Source: Synergistaceae bacterium (GTDB lineage Bacteria; Synergistota; Synergistia; Synergistales; Aminobacteriaceae). Taken from it: a DNA stretch of 13,956 bases. This document shows positions 1 through 13,447 of this stretch, piece by piece; within the stretch, counting starts at the first letter, position 1; every line of letters starts with the position of its first letter. The stretch spans positions 1 through 13,956 of the forward strand of contig JAFTBT010000006.1 of the NCBI GenBank assembly GCA_017455085.1, written 5' to 3'. Both the position numbers and the translations under genes were made by a program. A model generated the notes under the pieces. It worked only from the letters and a program-made list of their open reading frames with translations, searched no databases and had not been told where the DNA came from.

Positions 1-27
1 CCAGACCAGACCAGACCAGACCAGACC
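1..27. repeat. CCAGA pentanucleotide tandem repeat at window edge
   Basis: Five full CCAGA units plus two bases run from the first base of the window, so the array may extend further left. The reading frame of the downstream phosphoethanolamine transferase is open right through the array to the window edge. A 5-bp unit is not a multiple of three, so gain or loss of a unit would shift any reading frame that crosses it. Confidence 0.8.
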
Positions 28-5165: not shown

Positions 5166-5205
5166 AAGCGGAGTTTTCTCGATGATGAGGGGACTCCGCT
5201 TTTTT
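5166..5205 (+). terminator. Intrinsic terminator of the porin gene (first copy)
   Basis: AAGCGGAGT (5166-5174) pairs with ACTCCGCTT (5193-5201). The inner part can continue through three T-G wobbles and CTC/GAG to a GATGAT loop. A run of six T (5200-5205) follows. Confidence 0.9.
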
Positions 5206-5452
5206 GTGTGAGTGTAGTATTTAGTTGTGGTGTGGATGCAGCTTTTTGTTGTGTGTATGTAGCCTAAGCATGTTTTGGGGACATAAAAACCCGTATGAGT
5301 ATCTGTAATTCTGACAGTGGAGTTTTCTCGATGATGAGGGGACTCCGCTTTTTGTGTGAGTGTAGTATTTAGTTGTGGTGTGGATGCAGCTTTTTGTTGT
5401 GTGTATGTAGCCTCAGAATATGTCGGGAACATAAAAGCCCATATGAGTATCT
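5170..5452 (+). repeat. 149-bp tandem duplication carrying the terminator
   Basis: Unit 1 (5170-5318) and unit 2 (5319 to about 5452) are nearly identical over about the first 100 bases, including the hairpin, its T-run and the following GT-rich stretch. They then diverge moderately (AAGCATGTTTTGGGG against CAGAATATGTCGGGA) and match again around ACATAAAA and TATGAGTATCT. One T is missing from the T-run of unit 2. Confidence 0.85.
5316..5353 (+). terminator. Intrinsic terminator, duplicated second copy
   Basis: AGTGGAGT (5316-5323) pairs with ACTCCGCT (5342-5349) with one T-G wobble, same GATGAT loop, then five T. The wobble replaces a C-G pair of the first copy, so the hairpin is kept and this probably works as a backup terminator. 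Confidence 0.8.
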
Positions 5453-6162: not shown

Positions 6163-6178
6163 ATGTTTTCAAGTTACT

Positions 6179-6394
6179 CACAACTCGCGGACTACCCACA
6201 ACTTGCAGATTACACACAATTCACGAATTAATCAGACCTTGCAGACTAACCATAAATCAATGACTACTCGCAACTCTCGACCTATCCACAACTTGCAACT
6301 TACTCACAAATCACGAACTACTCGCAACTCGCTGACTACTCACAAATTGCAGACTAACCACAAATCACGAAGTATTCATAACTCACTGGCATAA
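6179..6394. repeat. Twelve degenerate 18-bp tandem repeats inside the tRNA cluster
   Basis: Twelve consecutive 18-bp units in register, each starting near CACAA or CGCAA. The + strand consensus is roughly CACAACTCGCAGACTACT, and only the last unit drifts. They occupy most of the 343-base gap (6163-6505) between tRNA-His and tRNA-Arg(TCT), which holds no gene. Because 18 is a multiple of three, the + strand stays open across the array and would read as hexapeptides like THNSRT, but that frame starts inside antisense tRNA-His. Confidence 0.85.
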
Positions 6395-12192: not shown

Positions 12193-12214
12193 AACTGTTT
12201 TTGTTGAGTGGCGT

Positions 12215-12322
12215 TCAAAACCTCAGGAACTCGCGTATATTCTCGTTATGCATTTGTCTTATCAGGAAGAGACCCAGAGCATCATGCACATAATAGTGAT
12301 TGCTGGCTTTACGCTGCTGTGA
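12215..12322 (-). pseudogene. Decayed copy of the 3' end of the acyltransferase gene
   Basis: This 110-bp block repeats the end of the adjacent acyltransferase gene. The last about 55 bases before the stop are almost identical (two differences), encoding FLIRQMHNENIREFLRF, while the more upstream part has drifted (KPAITIMCMMLW against KLAIIMTGLMLW) and carries a one-base frameshift after LW. The gradient of similarity suggests a remnant of a tandem paralogue rather than a recent clean duplication. No start or remaining N-terminal part exists. Confidence 0.75.
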
Positions 12323-12324
12323 GT

Positions 12325-13375
12325 TCAAAACCTCAGGAACTCGCGTATATTCTCATTATGAATTTGTCTTATCAGGAAGTTCCAAAGCATCAGGCCTGTC
12401 ATGATGATTGCTAGCTTTAGAGTCAACGCTGTAAACACGTTATGCATACCCAAAAAATCAAGTGAGTGGCTCGCTATCCTGTTGGCAAAGAAATCAAAGC
12501 TCATTATGAACACTGTATGCTGTCCCAAGTACCCCAGAAATCCAGAACGATCTGCAAAAATCTTCCTCACCACGCAGAAAACTACTGAAGATACGCCTGT
12601 TGCTCCGATAATCATCAGTATCAAGCTGCCGTAATGATTATTATCAAAGCTCACAGATCCGTCACCAAAGTTAAAGTTGCACATAATTCCTGCTGTTCCG
12701 ACACAAAACATGATAACCAGCAGTGATATTTGCTTCGTGAGGCTCAAACCCTCAAACTTCCCAAGCAAGTCCGAAGTCCTGGTCATGTGCCCGAAAGCAA
12801 TGAATATGATTCCCATCAATGCAGAGTCAATATTCCAAAAGAGTTTTGGGCAGTCGTTTTTAGCAAGCAGGAAGCTCACCACAGGGCATAACACCACAGC
12901 AAAAAAGTAAAGTATTCGGCTCTTTATCCGTGTGATCCAGAAATATATCACCAGAGCTGAAGATAACGCTGTCAAGAACCATAGAGGCGTACAGTTCGGC
13001 ATACATTCGAAAGTACCTCGTGAATATATGATACCCCTCACATAATTGGGAACGTCATACTCCATGCCAAGAAGGAAGTGAATTATTATCTCGATAAGCA
13101 GGTTTATTCCGCAGAGTATGAAGTAAGGGATAATATATCTGTATGCTATTTTGTGAATGAGTTCGCTGAAAGGTCTCTCCTGCTTGAAGAGGTAGCCGGC
13201 AAGCATGAAGAATAGAGGCATATGGAATCCGTTAATGAACTTGTAGATCTGGAACGGGAAAACTCTACCGAAGATTCGAAGGTGTCCGATAAGAACAAGA
13301 AGGATAGCAATTCCACGAAGACAATCAATCCAGCCTAGCCGTGAGCCGTGAGCTTATTCTATGCATATTTCTCAT
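12325..13375 (-). pseudogene. Acyltransferase-3 family membrane protein, frame broken near the start
   Basis: Multi-pass membrane O-acyltransferase of the acyltransferase-3 group (OafA/WecH-like), which adds acetyl groups to surface sugars. The intact frame from ATG 13221 (298 residues) starts MPLFFMLAGYLF, which is normally about residue 50 of the family. Sequence between 13353 and 13221 continues in the same frame and encodes the missing first helix, LGWIDCLRGIAILLVLIGH, with the family's catalytic His, then FINGFH. That frame has no start codon and meets TAA at 13356-13354. ATGs at 13375 and 13366 are in another frame. A 7-bp tandem duplication (13338-13353) accounts for the shift exactly: with one copy the gene would read MRNMHRISSRLGWID onward for 347 residues, the normal size. 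As present, only an N-truncated product lacking the catalytic His could be made. AT-rich compared with the mur genes. Confidence 0.8.
13338..13353. repeat. 7-bp tandem duplication breaking the acyltransferase frame
   Basis: GCCGTGA at 13338-13344 is repeated at 13345-13351, and GC follows (2.3 copies). It lies just inside the acyltransferase coding region. Seven is one more than a multiple of three, so loss of one copy joins the upstream ATG (13375 or 13366) with the downstream frame. Confidence 0.9.
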
Positions 13376-13418
13376 GAATATCAACCGTTTCTTTAGGGAT
13401 TTTTTGTGTCTTGCGCAG

Positions 13419-13447
13419 AGTATATCATACAAAAAACAGCAGGCCAA
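13419..13447 (-). promoter_or_regulatory. Possible acyltransferase promoter overlapping a terminator
   Basis: TTGGCC (13447-13442), a 17-base spacer, then TGA-TATACT with the -10 hexamer at 13424-13419. Transcription would start near 13412, about 37 bases before ATG 13375. The -35 box lies in the hairpin of the flavodoxin terminator, which is unusual, so this could be coincidence. Confidence 0.4.

Follow-up and report, generated by a model that had tools for sequence, protein, structure and literature searches.

In a stretch of Synergistaceae DNA analysed here (13,956 nucleotides, positions 1 to 13,956 of contig JAFTBT010000006.1; hereafter the window), a gene for an acyltransferase-3 (AT3) protein is probably, at odds of roughly seven in ten, a simple-sequence contingency locus caught in its OFF frame, and one of a clade-wide set of such loci in the Synergistaceae. 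Membership of a clade-wide switch system can be claimed for this locus with more confidence than continued switching of this copy, since its array is almost the shortest of its kind and its ribosome site is weak. The following elements, all on the minus strand, make up the core of the locus.

13337..13353, minus strand: perfect 7-nt tandem array, 2.43 copies, sense unit GCTCACG, joining the start-codon frame to the acyltransferase frame
13325..13375, minus strand: frame from the ATG at 13375 (second ATG at 13366), 16 codons by way of the array and then a stop
12325..13353, minus strand: intact acyltransferase-3 frame, 342 codons plus stop, Pfam PF01757 at E 5.4e-18
13282..13317, minus strand: R-X10-H motif of the first helix (RGIAILLVLIGH), read in the enzyme frame

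Translation would start from one or other of the ATGs that precede the array, pass through a short leader and the array itself, and reach the AT3 frame only in one of the three copy-number classes modulo 3. With the copies now present it would run 16 codons to a stop, and initiation at the internal ATG would leave out the catalytic first helix. Each 7-nt unit added or removed, presumably through slippage or recombination, would shift the gene to another frame, and such shifts may switch surface-sugar acylation on and off; the reversibility of the change, the expression of the gene and its sugar substrate are what we infer.

The array has the properties expected of such a switch: its unit is not divisible by three, and it lies in the 5′ coding region between the start codon and the gene. 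An earlier note on this DNA had described a perfect tandem duplication of GCCGTGA, which is what both direct reading (13338-13344 and again 13345-13351) and TRF return, the latter reporting period 7, 2.4 copies and a 100% match over the 17 nt of 13337-13353. The two ATGs, at 13375 and 13366, lie in one frame, a base off that of the enzyme; it ends at the stop at 13325-13327, 16 codons after the first ATG, so that in the two-copy state both do run into a stop, as had been claimed. The ATG at 13375 and the enzyme frame are offset by 22 nt (1 mod 3); as the unit of 7 nt is likewise 1 mod 3, the note's frame arithmetic holds, with a single copy giving an acyltransferase of 347 residues; the PF01757 match (Acyl_transf_3, 65.6 bits against a gathering cut-off of 31) agrees with the family named. 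The enzyme frame opens at 13353, immediately preceded by a TAA, and its earliest ATG, GTG or TTG lies at 13221. The R-X10-H motif, whose Arg and His are reported to be essential in Salmonella OafA (PMC7448272), lies ahead of that point, and a product begun at 13221 would therefore lack it. Membership of the PF01757 family suggests that the enzyme acylates a surface sugar.

Taken alone the window repeat is only mildly unusual, since a perfect period-7 run of at least 17 nt occurs in 2.7% of 300 first-order Markov sequences modelled on the window. It gains its significance from its position at the frame junction and from the array that a relative carries at the equivalent position. Other repeats were also seen in the window: the 3′ end of the acyltransferase gene is repeated 110 bp downstream as a 57-bp direct repeat, 96% identical (12213-12269 and 12323-12379), and the segments 5170-5452 and 6175-6388 hold a 148-bp unit (1.9 copies) and an 18/54/90-bp array, next to which 88-nt repeats resemble tRNA genes by eye.

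The relative in question is the locus L001, found in a Synergistaceae MAG from goat abomasum (G001), the sole carrier of a close orthologue (57% identity) among 185 Synergistota genomes at E 1e-20; of 48 candidate stretches in viral contigs none was confirmed, and no DNA match turned up among plasmids. Its neighbourhood resembles that of the window, with flavodoxin-like genes, the acyltransferase and then murD-, ftsW- and murG-like genes, named by their likeness to the window genes, which were themselves Pfam-scanned. Comparison with related genomes, which the earlier note had proposed as a check, shows that L001 has its own 7-nt array at the corresponding position, between the ATG and helix 1, with the unit GGCTCAA in 3.43 copies, and that its ATG likewise misses the enzyme frame by one base, the offset (+1) equalling that of the window. 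The array has kept its place though its unit and copy number have changed, which fits the expectation for a live array.

A wider census points to a recurrent arrangement. PF01757 was searched in 81 genomes of the goat MAG’s family, 48 of which gave a match, and the 5′ regions were gathered; an array was counted when perfect, of period 4-12, at least 15 bp and at least 2.3 copies long, and located from -160 to +20 of the helix-1 motif. Among 127 census loci, 101 matched a home-made profile and 26 did not, 20 of these being placed through Pfam coordinates and six (L144, L151, L154, L155, L156, L158) left out, as their Pfam match starts past the N-terminus. Genes whose profile match starts after position 12, eight short or weak PF01757 matches and the second gene of L126 (with a GGAGTCA array) were also left out, and duplicates were merged, giving 112 distinct genes with a located N-terminus, the window’s included. 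Arrays were found in 56 of these, or in 54, all with units of 5, 7 or 8 nt, once L051 and L127 are dropped as AT-rich intergenic runs; the same test passed in just 3 of 444 control windows inside those AT3 genes. The 56 genes hold 58 arrays, with period 7 in 37 (one dropped), 5 in 11, 8 in nine and 6 in one (dropped), and none of the 5′ arrays of the 112 genes has a period of 3 or 9. Copy number reaches 14.4, and the window array is joint second shortest among the 54, with L102 equal and only L021 shorter.

The distribution follows relatedness to the window. Where MurD shares 64% identity or more with the window’s, in 35 genomes, 53 of 98 genes (window excluded) have an array and 27 genomes hold at least one array-bearing AT3 gene, while none of 13 AT3 genes in nine more distant genomes has one; the MurD identities of G032, G036, G050 and G067 come from partial matches. 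Two further lines of argument were considered and rejected. A contig ends within 160 nt upstream in 11 of the 112 genes, and seven of these 11 contigs begin inside the array, which is no proof of copy-number mixtures, as one unit common to several loci also breaks assembly. Nor do stop-free units prove translation: all 20 distinct units are stop-free in the sense direction (P 0.0175 against letter shuffles), but so are 14 of the 20 in antisense.

Start codons, picked as Shine-Dalgarno-preceded starts upstream of the array, could be assigned in 45 of the 56 array genes; seven others are truncated at a contig end, and four, among them the window’s, lack such a start, the window’s ribosome site being too weak for this rule. 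The 45 picks fall in frame in 11 cases, at +1 in 18 and at +2 in 16, with no departure from equal thirds (P 0.42). Nine of them are TTG or GTG, and ATG-only picks give nine in frame, 14 at +1 and 13 at +2. L102, with 2.43 copies as in the window, is in frame.

Out-of-frame AT3 genes remain under purifying selection. In five of eight pairs, those unsaturated at synonymous sites and including pairs in which neither member is in frame, dN/dS is 0.12-0.30: L122 (in frame) and L130 (not in frame) give 0.12, L062/L052 0.18, L052/L085 0.26, and L022/L098 and L054/L069 0.30 each. The other three, window/L009 (pS 0.74, pN 0.25), L023/L108 and L014/L016, are saturated. L052, L062, L054 and L069 have no in-frame start within the stretch examined, and their enzymes are nonetheless conserved. 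Copy number differs between relatives, as in L122 and L130 (12.0 versus 6.4 copies, 90.4% identical over 700 nt) and L052 and L085 (3.4 versus 14.4 copies, 79% identical). In L054 and L069 the units themselves differ (GACCA versus AGCAGAG) while the gene bodies are 84% identical in DNA, and here the 5′ module seems to have been exchanged as one piece.

Evidence that arrays are read through comes from the protein catalogue, which was searched with the in-frame L122 protein, the 7,996 candidates with most shared words being scored. Among these, 74 relatives were found at E 1e-60 or better, of which 22 carry, by motif, an array-encoded N-terminal peptide linking leader and enzyme (14 by a stricter repeat test); in one example, MQNRVIIDQTRPDQTRPDQTRPDRNSALELLR, the protein begins at the predicted ATG and leader and array are read into the enzyme. 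A further 23 are full-length without an array peptide, and 29 start inside or after helix 1, as gene calling on an out-of-frame gene would give. The period of these peptides is five or seven residues, equal to three units of DNA, as would follow from one copy number in three being in frame. In P0039, which shares 90% identity with L122, a seven-residue repeat occurs twice, and in L122 four times.

The array, its frames, the conservation of the enzyme, the recurrence in the clade and the copy-number differences between relatives are established by the sequences. The comparative evidence favours the copy-number switch that the earlier note proposed over a one-off fixed mutation or an assembly error: the orthologue has an array, as do about half of the related genes, their frames are mixed, selection persists when the gene is out of frame, and in-frame array peptides occur in the catalogue. 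An assembly error, with the real molecule having a different copy number, is extremely improbable. Arrays in this clade do often lie at contig ends (the 11 genes and seven contigs noted above), but one unit at several loci also explains such breaks, a 17-bp array is much shorter than a sequencing read, and the orthologue carries its own array at the corresponding position. It is also very unlikely, if somewhat less so, that the enzyme is produced in the present frame through recoding or an unusual start codon, the repeat being no switch at all. This idea draws on the +1 offset common to the window and L001, and on the public annotation of the L001 gene (catalogue protein P0004) from an in-frame CTG; it has to contend with the TAA directly before the window array in the enzyme frame, with the next start at 13221, and with the three offsets across 45 relatives, for which no single recoding event would serve.

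A different matter is whether the clade system is real while the window copy is locked OFF, its array contracted and its start weakened, and is heading towards a pseudogene, which we consider unlikely. The near-shortest array and weak ribosome site would suit such decay, as would the 57-bp direct repeat of the gene’s 3′ end and the catalogue relatives nearest to the window enzyme: none of the five (P0001-P0005) has an ATG-started leader running through an array, P0001, P0003 and P0005 starting after helix 1 and P0002 at helix 1, and P0001-P0003 and P0005 are known as protein sequences only. However, the 342-codon frame is intact, P0001, 95% identical to the window enzyme, keeps the remainder of the enzyme, and L102 is in frame at the same 2.43 copies. 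A short array need not be a silent one either, as a four-copy 5-nt tract of Haemophilus hsdM is reported to switch at a high rate (PMC2651432). The preferred reading remains a contingency locus in its OFF frame.

Upstream of the array lie two predicted promoters.

13356..13384, minus strand: P2, sigma-70-like promoter, TTGATA, 17 nt, TAGAAT, score 10 of 12
13419..13427, minus strand: P1, possible upstream promoter, an extended -10-like TGATATACT, found by eye and conserved as a class in relatives

P2 ends 2 nt ahead of the window array, and the start codon lies between its -35 and -10 hexamers; its -10 of TAGAAT counts against the preferred reading. The test of P2 covered the 46 array genes whose upstream sequence reaches 60 nt or more, together with 39 additional arrays picked by unit only, eight of which run into a contig edge before any gene; the search for pairs of relatives itself demanded a P2-like element and hence is no test of P2. 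In the 60 nt ahead of the array the best sigma-70 score averages 10.3 of 12 in the 46 genes (shuffled 7.7), compared with 8.0 (shuffled 7.5) in 54 AT3 genes without arrays, and the -10 terminates 0-8 nt ahead of the array in 41 of the 46. The 39 unit-picked arrays give a mean of 9.97 (shuffled 7.66), with at least 10 in 30, and the other side of these arrays reaches that score in 2 of 31. When 64 loci are aligned on the -35, TTGAC is conserved and the spacer far less so. An extended -10 of the TGnTAnAAT type is found about 60 nt ahead of the array in 20 of the 46 genes (shuffles 2.9 +/- 1.6) and in 21 of the 39 unit-picked arrays (4.0 expected). The strict pattern occurs five times in 400 kb of G061, both strands counted, and twice at arrays.

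Transcription usually starts 6-8 nt after a -10 element. For P2 this would place the predicted start point within the array or at its edge, past the start codon, and P2 transcripts could therefore not yield the full protein. Our boldest guess is that transcription initiated from P2 may make the array more mutable. More broadly, it is a tentative idea, which we think rather doubtful, that the clade has a large modular phase-variation system in which a portable 5′ module (an extended -10 upstream, then ribosome site, start codon, near-consensus sigma-70 promoter and 5-, 7- or 8-nt array) precedes many surface-glycan genes and passes from one to another, its promoter at the array edge acting as a built-in mutator.

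Similar arrays occur at other surface-sugar genes. Across the 81 genomes the unit GACCA forms arrays in 17 and GGAGTCA in nine, and of 43 loci with these units 30 enter a long open frame, eight reach a contig edge and five (L211, L264, L268, L272, L273) do neither. Pfam assigned the 30 to glycosyltransferase family 2 (six) and family 61 (four), methyltransferases (six, one slightly below cut-off), PIG-L deacetylase, polysaccharide pyruvyl transferase, FrhB/FdhB C-terminus and DUF6492 (two each) and nucleotidyl transferase (one), with no match for five. One methyltransferase gene and its array appear identical in L202 (G001:C55) and L207 (G030:C48), from genomes of different species, reflecting either recent transfer or mixed MAGs. 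The window itself holds a second candidate switch of like kind.

1..27, plus strand: (CCAGA)5.4 running off the left window edge, within open reading frame 2-1720, of sulfatase fold

Of the 12 relatives of this ORF that share its fold, three (L026-L028) have 5-nt arrays at the same end and five none, and by eye L025, L029, L031 and L033 have 10-nt arrays there. A 400-kb stretch of G061, picked regardless of arrays, contains ten with 2.9 copies or more, half of them with 6-nt units and the rest with units of 7 nt (three) or 8 nt (two); 400 kb of the distant G014 contain a single one, of 9 nt. Of G061’s five 7-8-nt arrays, two open long genes, one being the acyltransferase L098; another sits at the first base of a contig, and the remaining two are not directly followed by a long gene. 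These last, on C2 at 164972-165018 (6.7 copies) and 255331-255388 (7.3 copies), have a similar upstream module and are perhaps empty or eroded modules.

Repeat-driven phase variation has been described chiefly in host-adapted pathogens. A primer on the subject likewise presents it as typical of surface genes in small-genome pathogens (PMC11475388). In Salmonella oafA, which the window locus resembles in anatomy, an AT3-type surface-sugar acetyltransferase is inactivated by a 7-bp repeat change (PMC9705250, PMC11921320), contraction of the repeat abolishing O:5 acetylation (PMC9705250), and a review of AT3 proteins describes oafA and oafB as phase-variable (PMC9558356); whereas oafA is a single gene, the clade has many, with about 20 units, arrays of up to 14 copies and a common upstream module. 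The lipooligosaccharide genes of Haemophilus influenzae, including oafA with its (GCAA)n, also carry frame-shifting 5′ coding repeats in several genes per genome (PMC6479036, PMC2651432). Their units are mostly of 4 nt, though 5-, 7- and 8-nt tracts are present (PMC2651432), while those of the Synergistaceae, in another phylum and with an abutting promoter, are of 5, 7 and 8 nt, and 10 nt in the sulfatases. The heptanucleotide tracts of Haemophilus HMW1/HMW2 resemble the present arrays as 7-nt arrays at promoters (PMC2651432, PMC11475388), but they tune expression by their length from upstream, whereas the Synergistaceae arrays lie downstream of the start codon. In marine Beggiatoaceae the heptamer TAACTGA forms direct repeats near the start codons of many genes per genome; it is one intergenic unit, without functional bias, for which regulator sites were proposed (PMC4679880), in contrast to the many coding units of the Synergistaceae with their bias to surface-sugar genes. 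For the Synergistetes, putative DNA inversions are reported in one of two species (PMC5903667); our search of the open-licence literature on phase variation or repeats in Synergistetes, Synergistaceae or Synergistota found no description of the array system, and the available part of PMC3711429 holds nothing on it.

The arrays point to large-scale, repeat-type phase variation of Synergistaceae genes that build or decorate surface sugars. If this is true, these bacteria would wear a combinatorially variable glycan coat, relevant to their encounters with phages and with the immune system, and gene catalogues would list many such genes as truncated. The promoter beside most arrays poses the further question of whether the mutation rate of an array is set by the transcription that would start there.
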